From positions 372,001-436,000 of the forward strand of contig NZ_CP023278.1 in the NCBI RefSeq assembly GCF_002896875.1: 64,000 nt of DNA. The letters are read 5' to 3'. This document shows positions 5,004 to 28,937 of the stretch, piece by piece. The stretch's first letter is position 1, and every line of letters starts with the position of its first letter. Origin of the DNA: Nostoc sp. CENA543. Lineage in GTDB: Bacteria; Cyanobacteriota; Cyanobacteriia; Cyanobacteriales; Nostocaceae. The position numbers and the translations under genes are program-made. A model generated the notes under the pieces. The model saw only the letters and a list, made by a program, of their open reading frames with translations. It made no database searches and had not been told where the DNA came from.

Positions 5004-6155
5004 ATGGATATCTATCAAATCGCTGTTCGTCCGGTTTTATTCAACCTATTAAAAGCAGATCCAGAGTGGTCACATCACCAAGCAATCAGCATTCTTCGTT
5101 GGCTATCTCATCAGCCTGACAATAGTTGGATGCACAGCCTGCTAGCGAAATCTTTATGTTTACAAAATCCCCGCCTGGAACAGAATCTATTTGGTTTACG
5201 TTTTCCTAACCCGGTAGGTTTGGCTGCTGGTTTTGATAAAGATGCTGTAACGTCGGGTATTTTGTCAAGTCTGGGTTTCGGTTTTGCTGAACTGGGAACT
5301 GTGACATTTGTAGCACAACCGGGAAATCCTCGCCCTCGTTTATTTCGCTTGCTTCCTGATCAAGCTGTTCTCAATCGTATGGGGTTTAATAATAGTGGTG
5401 CAGCAGCAATGGCAGCACGACTAACTCAAGACCAACAAGAATTTACGCCATCCATACCCATAGGTATTAATTTGGGTAAATCAAAGGTGACACCTCTAGA
5501 GTCAGCCGCCGATGACTATTTAGGTAGTTTTAGGCTACTCAAAGATTTGGGAGATTATTTTGTTGTCAATGTTTCTTCACCCAACACTCCAGGGTTGCGA
5601 TCGCTCCAAGATGCCTCTATGCTTAGTTCTATCTTGGATGTACTACAAAAAGAAAACAATTCACATAAACCAATATTTGTCAAGATAGCACCTGATTTAG
5701 AATGGGAAGCGATCGCCGACATTATTACCTTGGCGAAAACCTACCAATTAGCGGGGATGATTGCCACTAATACAACTATTAGTCGTGAGAGACTAAAAAC
5801 TCAGGTGATTGACATAACGGGTAAATCACCTGAGCAAGAAGCCGGAGGGATTAGTGGCGCGCCATTACGCGATCGCTCCACAGAAGTCATCAGATTTATT
5901 TGGCAGCAAACCCAAGGGCAGATTCCAATTATCGGGGTAGGTGGCATATTCTCCCCTGACGATGCTTGGGCAAAAATCACTGCGGGTGCTAGCCTCATTC
6001 AAGTGTATACAGGCTGGATTTACGAAGGCCCAATGATGGTACGCCGCATTTTAGAAGGTTTGCTCACCAAATTAGAACAACATGGACTCAATTCGATCTC
6101 GGAAGCAGTGGGTTTAGACTTTCGGAGTCGACAGTCAACAGTCAACAGTCAATAG
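5004..6155 (+). CDS. pyrD: Dihydroorotate dehydrogenase (quinone), class 2
   Basis: 383 residues. It oxidises dihydroorotate to orotate in pyrimidine synthesis with FMN, passing electrons to quinone at the membrane. Visible family signatures: [13 protein letters not shown] near residue 70, [30 protein letters not shown] carrying the class-2 catalytic serine, GMIATNTT, and the FMN-phosphate region PIIGVGGIF followed by [10 protein letters not shown]. The N-terminal helix of the membrane-bound class 2 enzyme is present. An in-frame TTG lies 12 bases upstream inside a TTGACTA repeat; the ATG at 5004 gives the natural start. The last residues (SRQSTVNSQ) are encoded by a GTCAACA tandem repeat that runs through the stop codon, so the C-terminus seems to have been extended or replaced by repeat DNA. 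It stands alone, divergent from the sensor gene. Confidence 0.95.
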
Positions 6156-6164
6156 TCAACTGTC
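6129..6164. repeat. GTCAACA heptamer repeat overlapping the pyrD 3' end
   Basis: Four imperfect copies of CAGTCAA/TAGTCAA units span the last codons and stop of pyrD. This is a short tandem heptamer repeat like those at 19898-19926 and 23778-23833. Confidence 0.75.
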
Positions 6165-6168
6165 CGCA

Positions 6169-6208
6169 CTTAGCACGGGCTAAACGCCCCGCTTCCGCTA
6201 ACAGCACT
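6169..6208 (-). repeat. Dispersed GCTGTTAGCGG hairpin repeat, one unit
   Basis: On the minus strand this reads GTGCTGTTAGCGGAAGCGG and continues GGCGTTTAGCCCG, one unit of a repeat found again at 7826-7900, 21252-21313 and 50027-50171. Each unit pairs with itself through short GC-rich arms (GGGCG/CGCCC type and TTAGC/GCTAA). Confidence 0.75.
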
Positions 6209-6210
6209 CC

Positions 6211-6954
6211 CTAACTCTCCTCCAGTGGAAAGAACTCCTTAGTTTTTTCTGAAAAAGTCCAAGCAATTCCATCAGGATCGCGGCTGCGAGTCCATTCAGG
6301 AAAGTCAGGATCATTCCGACGTTTATAAACAGTGCTGGAATAAACATTGAGCCTTTTAGCCAGTTCTGACTGAATTAAAGAGCCAAATAATAGCTGTTTT
6401 GCTAAATTTTGTCTCGCTTCTTCAGTTGCTACTGGTGGCGGTAATTCAGCTTCTGGTTCTGTCTGTGGCTCTGGTTCTGCTGCAACAGGTTCTGGTGGTG
6501 GCGGTGCTAAAAGCGATCGCGCCTCTTTGGTGACAGTTGGTGCAGTTAGTTGCTTAACAGGCTCACTACTGTCAAGAATGTTACCTAAAATACTACCTGT
6601 AATGAAGTAATAAACTTCACCACTCTCTCCAGCTGGTAGTATGCTTGCGCCGAATTCAGAAGCTTTACTATCTAGATAGCGTTTTGCTTGTGTACCGGGA
6701 AAATTTCCCCGAATTGCCAAATCTACAGGTGTAATTTTGCCTTGATTTTCTCTAACTAACTGACTAAAAATCGGGTTAACTCGCTGACACCACTGTTGCC
6801 ATTGGTATTGTTGCCAAACATTTAACCCAATCAGCAAAACCAGAAAAGCCAGCAAAAATTTCCAGGTAGTAACCAGGACAATAATCACAAACGATATTGG
6901 CAAAAGGAGAACGAGAAAGCCTTTCCCGCTACCTTCTATGGTTTTTTCACTCAT
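6211..6954 (-). CDS. Membrane-anchored hypothetical protein with C-terminal HTH-like segment
   Basis: 247 residues from the ATG at 6954 (a TTG at 6969 would add five). Residues about 15-50 form one or two hydrophobic segments (FLVLLLPISFVIIVLV, FLLAFLVLLIGLNVW). A Pro/Glu-rich linker follows near residues 145-180 (PPPPEPVAAEPEPQTEPEAE). The C-terminal 65 residues look like a helix-turn-helix or small DNA-binding module (LIQSELAKRLNVYSSTVYKRR) ending in WTRSRDPDGIAWTF. I do not recognise a named family. A cluster of TTTGGCAAA-like motifs covers its upstream DNA, one copy spanning the start region, which would suit autoregulation by a membrane-tethered regulator. The function is unknown and this regulatory idea is inference. 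Confidence 0.6.
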   Translation of the reverse strand: MSEKTIEGSGKGFLVLLLPISFVIIVLVTTWKFLLAFLVLLIGLNVWQQYQWQQWCQRVNPIFSQLVRENQGKITPVDLAIRGNFPGTQAKRYLDSKASEFGASILPAGESGEVYYFITGSILGNILDSSEPVKQLTAPTVTKEARSLLAPPPPEPVAAEPEPQTEPEAELPPPVATEEARQNLAKQLLFGSLIQSELAKRLNVYSSTVYKRRNDPDFPEWTRSRDPDGIAWTFSEKTKEFFPLEES

Positions 6955-6956
6955 GC

Positions 6957-7116
6957 CGATTTTTGCCAAGCGATTTTTTTGGGAAATAATATATTATATT
7001 GGCAAAAATCGAGACACATAATTGTATAGTTTGGCAAAGTTAGGGAAAAACAGGCAAAAATATCATTAACTTAAATTTGCCAAACCTCCAAACCCTTATA
7101 AATAAGGCAAAAACCA
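6957..7116. promoter_or_regulatory. Array of TTTGGCAAA-like motifs, possible operators
   Basis: Near-palindromic 9-mers occur at 6962-6970 (TTTGCCAAG), 6998-7006 (ATTGGCAAA), 7030-7038 (TTTGGCAAA) and 7076-7084 (TTTGCCAAA), with GGCAAAAA half-sites near 7053 and 7106. The first two lie within a perfect 13-base inverted repeat, CGATTTTTGCCAA at 6957-6969 and TTGGCAAAAATCG at 6999-7011, centres 42 bases apart. The motifs sit just upstream of, and over, the start of the gene at 6954. The repetition is seen directly; a binding role is inference. Confidence 0.45.
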
Positions 7117-7173
7117 GGGAAAACTTTTTGCAAATTATTTAGTGGTCTGAAAAAGCAGCTTTACTGGGTGAAT

Positions 7174-7211
7174 AAGTTCGTAGTAAGGACTAAAGTCCTT
7201 ACTACGAACTT
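7174..7211. repeat. Perfect 18-bp inverted repeat (palindromic element)
   Basis: AAGTTCGTAGTAAGGACT at 7174-7191 is exactly complementary to 7194-7211, with AA between. A related phrase (GTAGTAAGGGCTTCAGCTCT) occurs near 54862, so this is probably a dispersed palindromic repeat rather than a gene-specific terminator, although it could form a strong hairpin on either strand. Confidence 0.75.
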
Positions 7212-7330
7212 GCCAAGAAAATCAGCAAAAAATTTATCTTGACTCTTGACACTACAAAATACATATACTACATTAATACTACAAGCTGACGTTCCCAAAG
7301 GAGTTAAGCAAGACTTTGAACCAACTTATG

Positions 7331-7469
7331 TAGTGGATAGTTCAAATACTAGAACGCCCACCTTGCCTGAAAAGGCTGACCTATCGAGGGTTATCGAAAC
7401 AACTAATAACTTATTTCCCATACCCTTGATTAAACTCCTGGAAGTGCAGGTGTAAATCCTGTTCCACTA
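7331..7469 (+). ncRNA. tRNA-like RNA with inserted Y-RNA-like module, copy 1 (diverged)
   Basis: Acceptor arms TAGTGGA (7331-7337) and TCCACTA (7463-7469) pair over 7 bp. TA and a 4-bp D stem GTTC/GAAC follow; the T arm is GCAGG-TGTAAAT-CCTGT. In place of an anticodon arm is a long insertion containing the shared core TTGCC-TGAAAA-GGCTGACC and then GGGTTATCG (7363-7396). This is the most diverged of four copies: the D loop lacks the GG pair, the T loop starts TGT instead of TTC, and no clear anticodon-type stem is seen. A 69-codon open frame at 7246-7455 crosses it but has no other support. It may be a decayed or specialised copy. The Y-like reading rests on the core motif and on the TROVE gene downstream. 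Confidence 0.6.
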
Positions 7470-7501
7470 CATCAATCTAAAATTAATAAAAAATTTTTAT
7501 C

Positions 7502-7623
7502 TGGTGGGTAGCTCAATTTGGTAGAGCAATGAAAATCCTTAGTTCAGCAATTTGCCTGCAAAGGCCGACGAATCAAAGGTTATCGTTAATTCATGAGTTG
7601 TAGGTTCAAATCCTATCCCACCA
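7502..7623 (+). ncRNA. tRNA-like RNA with inserted Y-RNA-like module, copy 2
   Basis: All tRNA landmarks are present: acceptor TGGTGGG/CCCACCA (7502-7508 with 7617-7623), TA at positions 8-9, D stem GCTC/GAGC with a GG-containing loop, T arm GTAGG-TTCAAAT-CCTAT. The anticodon stem is ATGAA/TTCAT, but it encloses about 56 bases instead of a 7-base loop, so no anticodon is available. The insertion holds TTTGCC-TGCAAA-GGCCGACG followed by AAAGGTTATCG (7552-7585). GGYYGA and GGTTATC resemble the Ro-binding strand of Y RNAs, and TTGCC its partner strand. No CCA is encoded after base 73. Transcription on the plus strand toward the TROVE gene is inferred from orientation. Confidence 0.75.
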
Positions 7624-7657
7624 GACAAGCAACTATTTTAAAGTTTGAGTTTTCATG

Positions 7658-7789
7658 TAGCGGGTGGCGGAATTGGTAGACGCGCTAGACAAAAAACCTT
7701 GATCACAACTTGTCTGCAAAGGCTGAAGATTTGAGGATTACCGGGATCTTGTGACTAACTGTCTTGCAGGTTCGACTCCTGCCCCGCTA
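7658..7789 (+). ncRNA. tRNA-like RNA with inserted Y-RNA-like module, copy 3 (Leu-type D arm)
   Basis: Acceptor TAGCGGG/CCCGCTA (7658-7664 with 7783-7789), then TG and a D arm GCGGAATTGGTAGACGC, which is the form usual in tRNA-Leu. T arm GCAGG-TTCGACT-CCTGC. An AGACA/TGTCT stem stands where the anticodon stem should be, and an inner TCACAA/TTGTGA stem (7703-7708 with 7749-7754) closes the insertion. The core is CTTGTC-TGCAAA-GGCTGAAG then GAGGATTACCG (7710-7743), differing from the other copies in the last block. CCA follows the acceptor strand directly in the DNA. The insertion removes any anticodon loop. Confidence 0.75.
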
Positions 7790-7825
7790 CCAATATTTAG
7801 TGCTGAGTGCTGAGTTCTGAGTAAT

Positions 7826-7900
7826 GAGTGCTGTTAGCGGAAGCGGGGCGTTCAGCCCGTGCTGTTAGCGATAGCGCGGCGTTTAGCCGATGCTGAGTTG
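7826..7900 (+). repeat. Dispersed GCTGTTAGCGG hairpin repeat, two units
   Basis: Two consecutive units, one with GGAAGCGGGGCGTTCAGCCC and one with GATAGCGCGGCGTTTAGCCG, are flanked by GAGTAATGAGTGCTG and TGCTGAGTTG. The same family occurs at 6169-6208, 21252-21313 and 50027-50171. Confidence 0.8.
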
Positions 7901-7901
7901 A

Positions 7902-7933
7902 AATTTTGAATTTTGAATTTTGAATTTTGAATT
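7902..7933. repeat. TTTTGAA heptamer repeat
   Basis: About four tandem copies of a TTTTGAA/GAATTTT heptamer lie just before the fourth tRNA-like element. Confidence 0.7.
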
Positions 7934-7939
7934 GTTATG

Positions 7940-8062
7940 TGGCAGGTAACTCAGTCGGTAGAGTGCCTAAACATCCTTGTTCACCCCTTGCCTGCAAAGG
8001 CCGAAGAATGAGGGTTATCGCCTTCCATGCGGGATGTCGCAGGTTCGATTCCTGCCCTGCCA
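7940..8062 (+). ncRNA. tRNA-like RNA with inserted Y-RNA-like module, copy 4
   Basis: Acceptor TGGCAGG/CCTGCCA (7940-7946 with 8056-8062), TA, D stem ACTC/GAGT with loop AGTCGGTA, T arm GCAGG-TTCGATT-CCTGC. An ACATCC/GGATGT stem stands where the anticodon stem would be. The insertion carries ACCC-CTTGCC-TGCAAA-GGCCGAAG then AATGAGGGTTATCG. CUUGCC can pair with GGCCGAAG with single-base bulges, and ACCC with GGGU, giving a bulged two-part helix much like the Ro-binding helix of Y RNAs. It ends 38 bases before the TROVE start codon, so it may be processed out of the same transcript or expressed apart. An open frame that would extend the protein upstream through this element (from 7927) is rejected. 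Confidence 0.8.
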
Positions 8063-8100
8063 CCTTTCATTTTTGCCCGCAAGGGCTGGGAGATGCAGCG

Positions 8101-9702
8101 ATGAATTATAATTTTTTTACCAAAAACAAAACAACCACACCACAAAATCAACCCATCCCCGGAAGAGAAGCGGAAATGATCAAAGGCCGTTCCGGTGGTT
8201 GGATGTTCAATGCTGGTATTTGGCAGATGCTGCGCCGTTGCCTTTTAGTTGGTACAGCCCAAAGCACTTACTACGCAGGTAAACAAGAACTCACAGAAGA
8301 CTTTGTGGCGGTTGTAAAACAAGCTGTTGCAGAAAATCCCAGCCGTGTCGCCGAGGAAATTTTATACGCCAGCGATGGACGCGCCATCAATAATAGCGCA
8401 CCTATATTTGCTTTAGTGTTGCTGTCAATGGGTGAAACCCCAGAAGCAAAACAGGCTTTTGGTGAAATCTTTCCTCAAGTTGTCCGCACAGGTAGCCATT
8501 TCTATGAATGGTTGAACTATACCAAATCTCTGCGGGGTTTCGGTAAGATAGTGCGGGAAGCTGGTAAAACCTGGTTATCTCGTGAAGATGTCAAAGGTTT
8601 GGCTTATCAACTTTTGAAATACCAACAACGTCAAGGCTTTACTAACCGCGATGCTTTACGGTTGTTTCATGTTAAACCACCTACAGAAAATCACCGTCAG
8701 CTCTACGAGTGGGTAGTGAAAGGTTGGGCAGAATTACCCAGCGAAATACCCTCACAAGCGTTAGCGCAGATTTGGTGGTATGAATGGTTAAAACGCAACC
8801 CCAGCGAAACCCACCAAGCCATTTTGCAAGGGCGTTTAACCCACGAAATGGCTGCGCCTGTGGGCAACATGGATAAACAAGCTTGGCAATTACTATTTCA
8901 GGAAATGCCCATTGGTGCAATGTTGCGTAACTTGGGTTCATTAACTGAACTAGGTGTGTTGCGGGCTGATGAAACTACCAACTTGTCGCGGATAGAAGCT
9001 GTTCTCAACAACAAAGAACATCTGCGTAAAGGTCGTATTCATCCCATCGATGTTTTGAAAGCACTCAAAACTTACGAGTCTGGGGGCAGACTAGGACGCA
9101 GTAAGAAAACCTGGAGTCCAGTTCCCCGCATCGTAGACATCTTAGAAAAAGCCGTTGAGTTGTCTTTTGATGTGGTAGAACCCACAGGTAAAGTGTTCAT
9201 GCACGCTGTAGACGTTTCTGGTTCTATGGGTAGCTTGGTTGCAGACATGGGACTTAGCTGTTGTGAAATAGCCACCACAATGGCATTAGTTACAGCTAAA
9301 GCTGAGAAAAACTATATGATTCGTGGCTTTGCTACCGAATTCCGGGAATTAAATATCACTGCTAAAGATAGTTTTAGTTCTGCGGTGCAGAAAGCCAGCA
9401 ACCAAAACTTCGGCGGTACAGATGCTTCTGTAGCTTATGACTGGATGATTAAAAATAAGTTCAAAGCTGATGTCGTCTGCTTCTGGACTGACTCCGAAAG
9501 CTGGGCGGGTTATAAACATCCCTCTCAAGCTTTGGCAGAGTACCGTAAAAAAGTAAATCCTGATGTTAAGGCTGTGTATGTCACCTTGACACCTTACCGA
9601 ATTACCTTAGTAGATCCTCAAGATCCACTGTCTTGGGATTTGGCAGGATTTGACCCTGGTACACCTCGCATCATCCAGATGCTAGCTCAAGGCGAGTTGT
9701 AA
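8101..9702 (+). CDS. rsr: TROVE-domain Ro60/Rsr-type RNA-binding protein
   Basis: 533 residues, about the length of bacterial Rsr. The N-terminal two thirds (about 20-350) form the TROVE/HEAT-like ring that in Ro60 binds Y RNA outside and misfolded RNA ends in its hole. A von Willebrand A-like domain follows with a complete MIDAS start, DVSGSMGS, at about residues 369-376, plus GGTDAS and WTDSES downstream. In Deinococcus and Salmonella, Rsr with Y RNA helps exoribonucleases such as PNPase in RNA decay and repair; that role is expected but not shown here. ATG at 8101 has GGGAG a few bases upstream and matches the family start; a longer frame from 7927 runs through a structured RNA. Four tRNA/Y-like elements lie immediately upstream on the same strand, which strongly suggests cognate RNAs. 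Confidence 0.93.
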   Translation: MNYNFFTKNKTTTPQNQPIPGREAEMIKGRSGGWMFNAGIWQMLRRCLLVGTAQSTYYAGKQELTEDFVAVVKQAVAENPSRVAEEILYASDGRAINNSAPIFALVLLSMGETPEAKQAFGEIFPQVVRTGSHFYEWLNYTKSLRGFGKIVREAGKTWLSREDVKGLAYQLLKYQQRQGFTNRDALRLFHVKPPTENHRQLYEWVVKGWAELPSEIPSQALAQIWWYEWLKRNPSETHQAILQGRLTHEMAAPVGNMDKQAWQLLFQEMPIGAMLRNLGSLTELGVLRADETTNLSRIEAVLNNKEHLRKGRIHPIDVLKALKTYESGGRLGRSKKTWSPVPRIVDILEKAVELSFDVVEPTGKVFMHAVDVSGSMGSLVADMGLSCCEIATTMALVTAKAEKNYMIRGFATEFRELNITAKDSFSSAVQKASNQNFGGTDASVAYDWMIKNKFKADVVCFWTDSESWAGYKHPSQALAEYRKKVNPDVKAVYVTLTPYRITLVDPQDPLSWDLAGFDPGTPRIIQMLAQGEL

Positions 9703-9893: not shown

Positions 9894-10313
9894 ATGTCAG
9901 CCAAAGATCAATTCCATGAGGCTGTAAAAGTAGCACTCCAAAAAGATGGTTGGGTAATTACGGATGACCCTCTACATATTCGTATTAGTTCTACAACAAA
10001 GCTTTACATTGATTTGGGAGCGAAAAAGATTCTTGCTGCTGAAAGAGATGGAGAAAAAATAGCAGTGGAAGTCAAAAGTTTCTTGGGTGCTTCTACTATA
10101 AATGAATTTCACTTAGCGATAGGTCAATATATTAACTACCGTTATGCCTTAGCAGATTTTGGTTATGAACAAACCTTATATTTAGCAGTACCGTTGAGTA
10201 TTTATGATGATTTCTTTACACAACCATTTATTGAAGCAGTCATTGAACGGAGTCAAGTTAATCTCATAATTTTTGATGATGAAAAAAAAGAGGTTGTAAG
10301 ATGGCGAAGTTAG
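9894..10313 (+). CDS. xisH: XisH family protein (fdxN-element excision factor type)
   Basis: 139 residues starting MSAKDQFHEAVKVALQKDGW, the typical XisH N-terminus. A core IDLGAKKILAAERDGEKIAVEVKSF has the look of a PD-(D/E)XK nuclease fold (D, then ExK). In Anabaena PCC 7120, XisH and XisI are needed with XisF for excision of the fdxN element during heterocyst development; many cyanobacteria also carry extra xisH-xisI pairs of unknown role, and no fdxN or XisF gene is in view. The stop overlaps the xisI start by 13 bases, indicating translational coupling. Confidence 0.9.
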   Translation: MSAKDQFHEAVKVALQKDGWVITDDPLHIRISSTTKLYIDLGAKKILAAERDGEKIAVEVKSFLGASTINEFHLAIGQYINYRYALADFGYEQTLYLAVPLSIYDDFFTQPFIEAVIERSQVNLIIFDDEKKEVVRWRS

Positions 10314-10636
10314 AAAAATATAGAGATTATATTCAGCAATTACTGAATAAATACGCAGCAAGTGACTCTGGTGAAGATGGTGTGGAATTGCAAACCATTT
10401 TTGATATTGAACATGACCATTACCAACTTTTTTATGTTGGTTGGCACAATCGCAGGCGAGTTTATGGGCCTGTAATCCATTTAGATATTAAAAATGAAAA
10501 GATTTGGCTTCAGTGGAATGGTACAGAAGATGATATCGCTGCTGATTTAGTAGAAATGGGTGTTCCGAAGCAGGATATTGTATTGGGATTTCACTCGCCT
10601 TATATGCGTCAGTTTACTGATTTTGCAGTTGGTTAA
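10301..10636 (+). CDS. xisI: XisI family protein
   Basis: 111 residues, full length for XisI: MAKLEKYRDYIQQLLNKYA, then DIEHDHYQLFYVGWHNRRRVYG, HLDIKNEKIWLQWNGTEDDIA and the conserved end PKQDIVLGFHSPYMR. The start lies inside the end of xisH, so the two are one operon. The family is known as a partner of XisH in fdxN-element excision; outside that element the pair may form an independent regulatory or toxin-like unit, which is only a hypothesis. Confidence 0.92.
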   Translation: MAKLEKYRDYIQQLLNKYAASDSGEDGVELQTIFDIEHDHYQLFYVGWHNRRRVYGPVIHLDIKNEKIWLQWNGTEDDIAADLVEMGVPKQDIVLGFHSPYMRQFTDFAVG

Positions 10637-27230: not shown

Positions 27231-28937
27231 CTAAAACAAAAAGTATCTTTGCGCCATCGGTAGAACTGTGGCGGGTTCACAGGTTAATAATTCGCCATCG
27301 GCTTTCACTTCATAGGTTTCGGGATCTACTTCTATGTGAGGTAAAGCGTCATTGAGTTTCATATCCTGTTTAGTTAATTGACGCGTCCCGGAAACTGCAA
27401 GGGCTGATTTTTTCAACCCCAATTGCTGGGGAATGTCTCTAACTAAAGCCGCTTGGGACATAAAGGTTAAAGATGTAGTGTGTTTCGCACCAGCAAAACT
27501 ACCAAACATCGGTCGCATATGCACAGGTTGGGGTGTGGGAATACTGGCGTTAGCGTCTCCCATCTGTGACCATGCAATCATCCCGCCTTTAATGACTATC
27601 TCTGGTTTAACTCCAAAAAATGCCGGTCGCCACAAGCATAAATCTGCCAGTTTACCTTCCTCTACAGAACCGACATACTCCGCAATTCCATGTGCAGTGG
27701 CTGGATTTATTGTATATTTAGCCACATACCTTTTAGCTCGTAAATTATCTGCTGCTGTTTCTCCTACAAGGCTTCCCCGTTGCACCTTCATTTTATGGGC
27801 TGTTTGCCAGGTGCGAATAATTACTTCTCCCACCCTTCCCATCGCCTGGGAATCGGAGGAAATCATACTAAACGCGCCTAAATCGTGGAGAATATCTTCG
27901 GCGGCGATGGTTTCGCGACGGATGCGGGATTCTGCAAAGGCCACATCTTCAGGGATGCTGGGGTCGAGGTGATGGCAGACCATCAACATATCTAGATGTT
28001 CGTCTAAGGTGTTGAGGGTATAGGGACGAGTGGGGTTAGTGGAAGAGGGGAGGACGTTGGGTTGACCGCAGACTTTAATGATATCTGGTGCGTGTCCACC
28101 GCCTGCGCCTTCGGTGTGGTAGGTGTGAATGACGCGATTTTTAAAGGCGGCGATGGTATCTTCGACAAATCCGGCTTCGTTGAGAGTGTCGGTATGAATG
28201 GCTACTTGTACATCATACTCATCGGCGACGCTGAGACAAGTATCTATAGTTGCGGGTGTAGTTCCCCAGTCTTCATGAAGTTTTAACCCCATTGCGCCGG
28301 CTAAAACTTGTTCGACTAAGCCTTGGGGTTGGCTGGCGTTTCCCTTACCTAAAAAGCCTAAGTTGATGGGGAAAGCATCAGCCGCTTGTAGCATTCGATA
28401 GATGTTCCAGGGGCCGGGGGTGCAGGTGGTGGCGTTGGTTCCGGTGGCGGGGCCTGTACCACCGCCAATCATGGTTGTAATACCGGAGGCGATCGCAACT
28501 TCAATTTGCTGGGGACAGATAAAATGAATATGGCTATCAATCCCCCCAGCCGTGAGAATCATGCCTTCACCGGCTAAGGCTTCTGTACCAGGGCCGATAA
28601 TAATATCGATGTTGTCTTGAATATAGGGATTCCCAGCTTTCCCGATTTTAAATATTTTGCCGTCTTTAATGCCGATATCTGCTTTGACTATTCCCCACCA
28701 GTCGAGAATTAAGGCGTTGGTGATGACTAAATCTACTGCACCATCGGCGTTAGAAATCGGGGATTGTCCCATCCCATCACGGATGACTTTCCCACCACCA
28801 AATTTTACTTCGTCGCCGTAAGTGGTAAAGTCTTGTTCTACTTGTATAAATAATTCTGTATCAGCCAAACGGATGCGATCGCCTAATGTGAGGCCGTAGG
28901 TTTCTGCGTAGGCGCGGCGAGACATTCTATAACTCAT
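27231..28937 (-). CDS. ureC: Urease alpha subunit
   Basis: 568 residues, the family length. All nickel-site residues can be placed: H136 and H138 in SHIHFI, carbamylated K219 in [11 protein letters not shown]248 in VAIHTD, H274 in [13 protein letters not shown]362 in MISSDSQ, and the flap histidine in [13 protein letters not shown] (H322). It hydrolyses urea to ammonia and carbamate, feeding nitrogen assimilation. Last gene of a minus-strand operon ureD-ureA-(Uma2)-ureB-(nuclease)-ureC; its ATG overlaps the stop of the preceding nuclease-like gene by four bases. Accessory genes ureE, ureF and ureG are not in the window. Confidence 0.98.

Follow-up and report, generated by a model that had tools for sequence, protein, structure and literature searches.

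A tandem array of tRNA-shaped elements upstream of rsr

The stretch of Nostoc sp. CENA543 DNA analysed here (the window; 64,000 nucleotides (nt) of contig NZ_CP023278.1) features four tandem RNA elements, candidate Y RNAs, with rsr, the gene for a Ro60/TROVE-domain protein, directly downstream of the array and also on the plus strand (Table 1). Each element is laid out like a tRNA, with a 7-bp acceptor stem, D arm and T arm in the usual order, and an eighth acceptor pair (-1:73) extends the spans. The core TTGYCTGMAAAGGCYGA occurs exactly in all four, starting at positions 7363, 7552, 7710 and 7988, and these are its only exact matches in the whole genome, in which two more places match with one mismatch. 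The rsr product is a full Ro60 protein (Pfam vWA_Ro60, 7e-38; TROVE, 3e-16) with a profile match to Deinococcus radiodurans Rsr (PDB 2nvo, 3e-79), the other PDB relative being Ro60 (1yvp). An initial annotation had described four tRNA-framed elements with several different bodies, a Y RNA-like Ro-binding module and an adjoining full TROVE gene, and each part of this description was borne out.

A covariance model (R1) was built from 21 diverse copies, comprising 20 from 80 named loci (L numbers below) and element 4 of the window. Matches of R1 in those 80 loci and in genomes G010 and G013, which are from the same organisms, are partly by construction, and those in phage, viral and plasmid searches are not. 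Within the window, R1 matched elements 1–4 at 50, 89, 70 and 141 bits (E-values from 8e-9 to 4e-28) and no match besides these four reached an E-value of 1. When the best 150 of 1628 first-look candidates across the whole genome were scored, 43 other matches were obtained, all of at most 47 bits and with spans of 72–98 bases.

Table 1. Features of the array and of rsr in window coordinates. Bit scores are from R1 unless another model is named.
Feature	Position	Strand	Description
Predicted sigma70-type promoter	7246..7274	+	TTGACA 7246-7251, 17 nt, TACATT 7269-7274; ahead of array
Element 1 (type A)	7330..7470	+	tRNA frame; 50.4 bits, E 7.6e-9
Element 1 acceptor strands		+	GUAGUGGA/UCCACUAC
Element 1 Ro hairpin	7363-7379	+	Standard anticodon arm absent; D loop without GG
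Element 2	7501..7624	+	tRNA frame, -1:73 is C-G; 89.2 bits; Rfam tRNA 47.9 bits
Element 2 anticodon stem			5 bp, AUGAA/UUCAU; Y module sits in anticodon loop
Element 2 Ro hairpin	7552-7568	+	
Element 3	7657..7790	+	D arm tRNA(Leu)-like; 70.0 bits
Element 3 Y module		+	Separates stem (one mismatch) from loop CUUGUGA in anticodon arm; Ro hairpin 7710-7726; from ARAGORN with introns allowed
Element 4 (standard type)	7939..8063	+	141.4 bits, E 4e-28
Element 4 inner parts	7966-7967; 7968-8018; 8019-8021		tRNA positions 27-28; Y module (51 nt); tRNA positions 29-31
Element 4 3' parts	8022-8028; 8029-8033; 8039-8055		Anticodon loop CUUCCAU; tRNA positions 39-43; T arm
Element 4 Ro-binding hairpin	7988..8004	+	UUGCC, U-GCAA-A, GGC, bulged C, GA
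Element 4 upper Y stem	7975-7982	+	Paired with 8006-8013
Ro hairpin copy in rsr leader	8073..8092	+	UUGCCCGCAAGGGCUGG, 8073-8089; runs into Shine-Dalgarno GGGAG 8088-8092
rsr	8101..9702	+	Ro60/TROVE protein, 533 aa

Covariation and distribution of the elements

Alignment of the 21 copies showed that 96.9% of cells are paired, compared with at most 51% when the alignment was slid, and that two-sided changes affect 20 of the 35 pairs, amounting to 70 cells as against 17.9 after shuffling and no more than 12 after sliding. In a larger alignment of 146 distinct copies, which was fitted to the model, 97.2% of cells are paired and 25 of the 35 pairs feature two-sided changes (400 cells versus 107.6 in shuffles). 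Because the tRNA frame covaries in this way, chance can be excluded as an explanation for it. Compensatory changes had also been anticipated in the two inserted helices, and 7 of their 13 pairs do change on both sides among the 146 copies, mostly in few of them.

Thermodynamic folding, suggested as a further check, gave a mixed answer. The z-scores of elements 1–4 were -4.0, -1.7, -1.7 and -2.1. Parts of the cloverleaf are absent from the minimum-energy fold, element 3 being badly affected; energy folding is therefore weak evidence here and was set aside as a proof of structure. At its default settings, ARAGORN called none of the four elements a tRNA, and it called two when introns were allowed, while element 2 alone scored above the cut-off of the Rfam tRNA model.

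To follow the elements across the phylum, 244 genomes were searched with R1, with the best 14 candidates of each genome scored. Matches (E at most 1e-8) were found in 22 of the 30 genomes that encode a TROVE protein and in none of the 214 others (Fisher 5e-25), and all 48 places in those 22 genomes lie within 1.7 kb of a TROVE match, in keeping with the linkage to rsr that the initial annotation described. At an E-value of 1e-6, R1 also matched 79 of the 80 named loci; L082 gave no match, although a T arm-like stretch and a leader hairpin are present there. Many cyanobacteria thus carry such predicted arrays beside their Ro60 gene. The notion that a four-member array is distinctive did not hold, since 78 loci, including the window, carry between one and five framed copies each.

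The predicted Ro-binding module and its tRNA frame

The core was used to collect 311 matches from the window and the 80 named loci, 261 of which had a frame score of at least 13. We kept the 229 framed copies that lie on the plus strand upstream of rsr with a score of at least 16, and 224 of these are unique. As all 224 were found by the core itself, counts within the core are partly by selection, and the same is true of acceptor, D-arm and T-arm pairing, which the frame score rewards. The -1:73 pair and the anticodon stem played no part in the choice of frame.

A Ro-binding helix with a bulged C is a defining feature of Y RNAs. In the 224 copies the Ro hairpin consists, in order, of UUGCC, a GNRA-type tetraloop, GGC, a bulged C and GA. 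The tetraloop is GNRA in 204 copies, its closing pair is U-A in 192 and C-G in 23, the C is bulged in 218, and the five pairs of the Ro helix are present in 208, 213, 223, 224 and 224 copies. Above the Ro hairpin lies a second helix plus GGUUAUCG. The same Ro strands, in reversed order, flank phage Y RNAs, some of which have no tRNA part. In vertebrate Y RNAs such as human Y1, a GGUCCGA strand with a bulged C lies opposite UUGACC, and a GUUAUC motif is present. Human Y1 differs from the elements in that it has no tRNA module and its strands are in the opposite order.

Acceptor pairs 1:72 to 7:66 are kept in 221–224 of the 224 copies. The eighth pair, -1:73, is present in 216, followed by A and CCA in 75, and the first acceptor pair is U-A in 206. 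For 105 'standard' copies, defined by a module that ends exactly before position 29, the module interrupts the anticodon stem on its 5' side, between positions 28 and 29. Pair 27:43 is formed in 104 of these copies and 28:42 in 103 (C-G in 62, U-A in 40), 31:39 is C-G in 53, A-U in 40 and U-A in 9, and 29:41 fails in 23. U33 is found in 104 of the 105 loops and position 37 is a purine in 101; positions 34–36 vary. Among the 119 non-standard copies, 23 form all five pairs 27–31/39–43 ahead of the module, and just five of these 23 have U33. Element 2 of the window is of this kind, with C rather than U at position 33 in the ARAGORN reading.

By strict count, an anticodon stem is therefore retained in at least 128 of the 224 copies (the 105 standard copies and 23 more), the other 96 falling outside this count. 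In the window, elements 2–4 keep the stem, with one mismatch in element 3. The proposal that the module replaces the anticodon arm was accordingly rejected, and the Y module of elements 2–4 is instead inserted within that arm. Transfer-messenger RNA (tmRNA) is likewise tRNA-shaped with an insertion in place of decoding, and tRNA-Sec has an 8-bp acceptor stem; the elements are unlike both in having a Ro site, and no reading frame was noted in them.

Element 1 belongs to a divergent subclass, type A, with a D loop lacking GG and the T loop TGTAAAT. It is kept as such in relatives, in several of which type A takes the first place in the array. By eye, the upper Y stem of element 1 (7330-7470) seemingly pairs with a downstream strand, AUCGAGGGU with ACCCUUGAU, and not with an upstream one, and relatives look the same in this respect.

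Two further variants were observed. Short repeat-like inserts (e.g. CCCTACGGGAAGCAAGC) are found by pattern in the T loops of Y elements at seven loci (L042, L068, L070, L085, L089, L094 and L101), and by eye at L066 and L096; these are possibly small mobile repeats that tolerate that loop. In addition, 55 of the 80 named loci carry a Y element with no D arm, comprising acceptor, Ro module, hairpin, T arm and acceptor (e.g. L054, 5656-5764), which amounts to a tRNA minihelix bearing a Ro module. This element lies downstream of rsr in 54 loci and upstream in L132, and none was seen by eye in the window.

Relationship to YrlA RNAs

When overlaid on tRNAs, the YrlA structure (6CU1) fits them in circularly permuted form (PMC11472068). 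Like YrlA (RF02553, 6CU1), the array is encoded beside rsr and combines a Ro stem containing the bulged-C helix with D, T and acceptor modules that resemble those of tRNA. YrlA RNAs from phages and actinobacteria additionally share features with the elements in GGYYGA, GGUUAYC and, by eye in several, an anticodon-like hairpin. The two differ in their ends: YrlA ends at the Ro stem and its acceptor is closed by a loop, whereas the array elements end at the acceptor and cap their Ro stem with a GNRA-type loop. Their order of acceptor, D arm, closed Ro stem, T arm and acceptor is not the YrlA order, and fits YrlA only after circular permutation. The anticodon-like hairpin, which is not in the Rfam YrlA consensus, is seemingly present in L143, L144, L146, L150 and others, several of them with U33 by eye.

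Within the window, the Rfam YrlA model aligned solely to a stretch running from the element 1 T arm to the element 2 D arm (23.3 bits against a cut-off of 69), and its gathering score was reached in none of the 244 genomes of the phylum. Phage YrlA RNAs are likewise below this cut-off, at 34–52 bits. Use of this model as the sole detector was dropped after weak matches in control genomes (13 of 14 at an E-value of 10 and six of 14 at 0.001).

A permuted model (R2) was made from 17 elements that were opened in silico within the Ro loop and closed at the acceptor. In ten phage Ro loci, R2 found six full-length places in five loci (E 7e-15 to 2e-9); the scores of R1 there did not exceed 43 bits and came from spans of tRNA length and from stretches in a shifted register. 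Across 31 viral Ro loci, R2 gave 13 matches with E at most 1e-5 in seven loci, two of which look identical (best match 84 bits, 2e-17), and R1 gave three matches in two loci, namely a single 74-nt span and a tandem YrlA array that was matched twice in a shifted register. Of another 14 loci, Nonomuraea (R2 77.6, R1 49.6) and Rhizobium (R2 49.0, R1 none) have the YrlA order and two Picosynechococcus plasmids have the tRNA order (R1 85.5 and 83.4 versus R2 49.5 and 47.4), while several (e.g. L194 and L198) gave weak or partial matches only.

These comparisons show homology with YrlA after permutation. The kinship with YrlA is closer than the initial annotation supposed, the array elements and YrlA being circular permutations of the same RNA. 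The best explanation, and in our view a highly probable one, is that these genes specify cyanobacterial Y RNAs whose parts, in tRNA order, are those of YrlA after circular permutation.

Phylogeny of the TROVE proteins

A tree was constructed from 50 TROVE proteins, on which the protein nearest to that of the window is from Nostoc sp. CMAA1605. The 29 rows with tRNA order form one clade (99/99), and one change of order is sufficient in 98% of bootstrap trees, although long branches leave the root and the deep order unsure. Five phage loci (L145, L147, L148, L149 and L152) and five others (L194, L197, L198, L199 and L202) were labelled as unclear in order, and the YrlA label of L200, L201 and L203 rests on weak and partly partial R2 matches (32–39 bits) plus sub-threshold Rfam YrlA matches beside TROVE. 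Because the YrlA order surrounds the tRNA-order clade, we infer that the tRNA order is derived, and it perhaps arose by re-registration of a tandem YrlA array. Tandem YrlA arrays of this candidate precursor kind are found in Nonomuraea, a Gordonia phage and a viral contig. The viral contig L236 features approximately five tandem YrlA RNAs downstream of its Ro gene (5880-7040).

In one genome of the window's own family, a YrlA-order RNA accompanies a phage-like TROVE gene (L204, G154:C31), perhaps acquired from a phage or another bacterium.

Evaluation of alternative readings

Several observations weigh against the interpretation of the array as permuted Y RNAs with the functions considered below. 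Eight of the 30 TROVE genomes have no R1 match. Seven of these encode a TROVE protein outside the tRNA-order clade (G154, where a phage-like TROVE is accompanied by the YrlA order, and six in other branches of the phylum, three with weak YrlA matches beside TROVE), and the eighth (G064) has a TROVE fragment. R2 scored 17–35 bits in the other five of the ten phage loci and had no match at an E-value of 1e-5 in 24 of the 31 viral loci. In some arrays, R2 reaches up to 118 bits across neighbouring elements because their bodies are alike, so that folding alone does not argue against processing in the YrlA register. Type-A elements have no normal D and T loops, so not every copy makes a tRNA elbow, and the case for PNPase tethering and for autoregulation is one of analogy and position.

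The elements could chiefly serve to lure enzymes that act on tRNAs, anticodon nucleases for instance, as bait or decoys, the trapped product being cleared by Ro and PNPase and the varied anticodon loops being what matters. The 7-nt loops of the standard copies, with U33 fixed and 34–36 free, speak for such a role, but neutral drift would vary 34–36 equally well, U33 is rare in the non-standard copies with a full stem and absent from element 2, type-A elements have no anticodon loop, and no nuclease partner was identified. We regard this role as doubtful. A related idea, that the permutation itself is functional, is held just as tentatively: the elements would be near-complete tRNAs with drifting anticodons that are matured, CCA-tailed and modified to act as Ro-coupled bait, with the leader hairpin tying the level of Rsr to free Y RNA. 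This idea is weakened because U33 is not kept in elements of the element 2 type.

The elements could otherwise be tRNA genes with a short intron, whose excision would yield decoding tRNAs. When the module is removed, ARAGORN calls a tRNA in 104 of the 105 standard copies, and the near-constant U33 and purine 37 of these copies also favour this reading. In a 2017 paper (PMC5733544), tRNA-Gly(TCC) of Nostoc PCC 7107 and tRNA-Lys(CTT) of Gloeocapsa PCC 73106 are reported to have 'group I introns' of 22–49 nt that share CTTGxCT, AAGxC and GAAGAAT, an intron element left there to elucidate. Because these are Y-module motifs, the reported genes are very probably the elements described here, as judged by motifs rather than gene sequences; the paper reads them as introns, and its passages on them make no mention of Ro60 or Y RNA. 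For group I introns themselves, no Rfam intron family was among the matches, and the module of element 4 is 51 nt.

The anticodon argues against excision and decoding. Anticodon statistics were taken from the 105 standard copies or from the 47 last copies among them, which are positional orthologues with similar bodies. These 47 have 13 anticodons, and 34–36 are the most variable positions measured, whereas G-1, U1, A72 and C73 are invariant in 47 of 47. The genome also encodes an ordinary tRNA-Gly(TCC), and across the 244 genomes the elements occur only with TROVE. Neither an uninterrupted cloverleaf called by a tRNA finder nor an anticodon conserved among orthologues was found. Decoding is thus unlikely, as initially proposed, because the anticodon varies among orthologues and the ordinary tRNA is present, and the intron reading as a whole appears very improbable. 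An 8-bp acceptor stem together with an anticodon that is free to vary suggests tRNA mimicry by RNAs that would not serve translation.

A further possibility is that the transcript is cut in the Ro-hairpin loops to give classical YrlA RNAs, each combining the T arm of one copy with the D arm of the next, with the tRNA register as a by-product. The high scores of the permuted model across neighbours are compatible with this, as is the viral locus with a tandem array in the YrlA register. Acceptor strands, however, pair best within an element (a mean of 7.93 of 8 positions, n=229), and pairing across neighbours with less than 200 nt between them (6.62, n=136) is no better than between non-neighbours (6.57, n=230). 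Eight of the 78 loci have a single framed element, and L119, L121 and L125 give one R1 match each (134–138 bits). Linkers between elements range from 13 to 713 nt (median 54), with 15 of 151 at 200 nt or more. Selection would thus appear to act on the tRNA register, since acceptor strands pair best within an element and single-element loci exist, and processing in the YrlA register seems most unlikely. Finally, decaying tRNA pseudogenes with a mobile insert, for which the seven copies at seven loci matching the pattern of a T-loop repeat insert could be cited, are scarcely credible in light of the covariation of the 146 copies and the linkage to TROVE.

Our literature search, which did not take in the main papers of the Wolin group, found no paper that identifies such elements as Y RNAs and none that joins 'permuted tRNA' and 'Y RNA'; the matches listed for YrlA with cyanobacteria were chance ones by title. 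PMC8058203, the one paper to combine 'Y RNAs', Ro60 and cyanobacteria, mentions cyanobacteria just in its list of references.

Predicted promoter, rsr leader and a proposed mechanism

The predicted promoter ahead of the array belongs to a recurrent pattern, as TTGACn-N17-TACA precedes a type-A first element in 39 of 40 loci, the window included. The Ro hairpin copy ahead of rsr is similarly widespread: it was found by pattern in 72 of 77 leaders, with three start-less loci left out, and in 70 of 81 by a stricter pattern. One of the leaders missed by the latter had a wrong start coordinate, and by eye the rest are mostly variants of the loop. The hairpin copy is closed by C-G in 40 cases, U-A in 27 and U-G in 3. 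The overlap of this hairpin with the rsr Shine-Dalgarno sequence suggests, by analogy, that rsr could be autoregulated through its leader.

A working mechanism for the permuted Y RNAs can be proposed. The array and rsr would form one transcript, from which RNase P and tRNA 3' processing would release RNAs of 120–140 nt at their acceptor ends. Rsr would bind every released RNA via the Ro hairpin, leaving the tRNA-shaped body to face outward, where, as in RYPER of D. radiodurans, it may tether or gate Rsr for PNPase or other tRNA-binding partners. The RYPER model, in which a Y RNA tethers Rsr to PNPase (PMC8394870), can apply here because the genome encodes PNPase. Rsr that is free of Y RNA would bind the leader hairpin and block its own translation.

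Other features were observed around the array. A long inverted repeat, TTCGTAGTAAGGACTAAAGTCCTTACTACGAA, lies upstream of the predicted promoter (window 7168-7217), and a XisH/XisI gene pair is directly downstream of rsr (window 9894-10636). An Rfam 5_ureB_sRNA match (window 28496-28785, 100 bits) may merely reflect the coding sequence of a urease gene.

Implications

The permuted Y RNAs would link the worlds of Y RNA and tRNA, as one RNA would exist in two natural circular registers, one of them ordered like a tRNA with a Ro site. Comparing the two registers would then offer an experiment of nature on the ends, the processing enzymes and the features of tRNA that a Ro ribonucleoprotein requires. 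This finding would also account for genes that were probably misread as intron-bearing tRNAs, and it predicts a simple autoregulatory switch on rsr. Recognisable Y RNAs would be extended to many cyanobacteria, including the genetically tractable Picosynechococcus PCC 7002, whose plasmid pAQ7 features three R1 matches.

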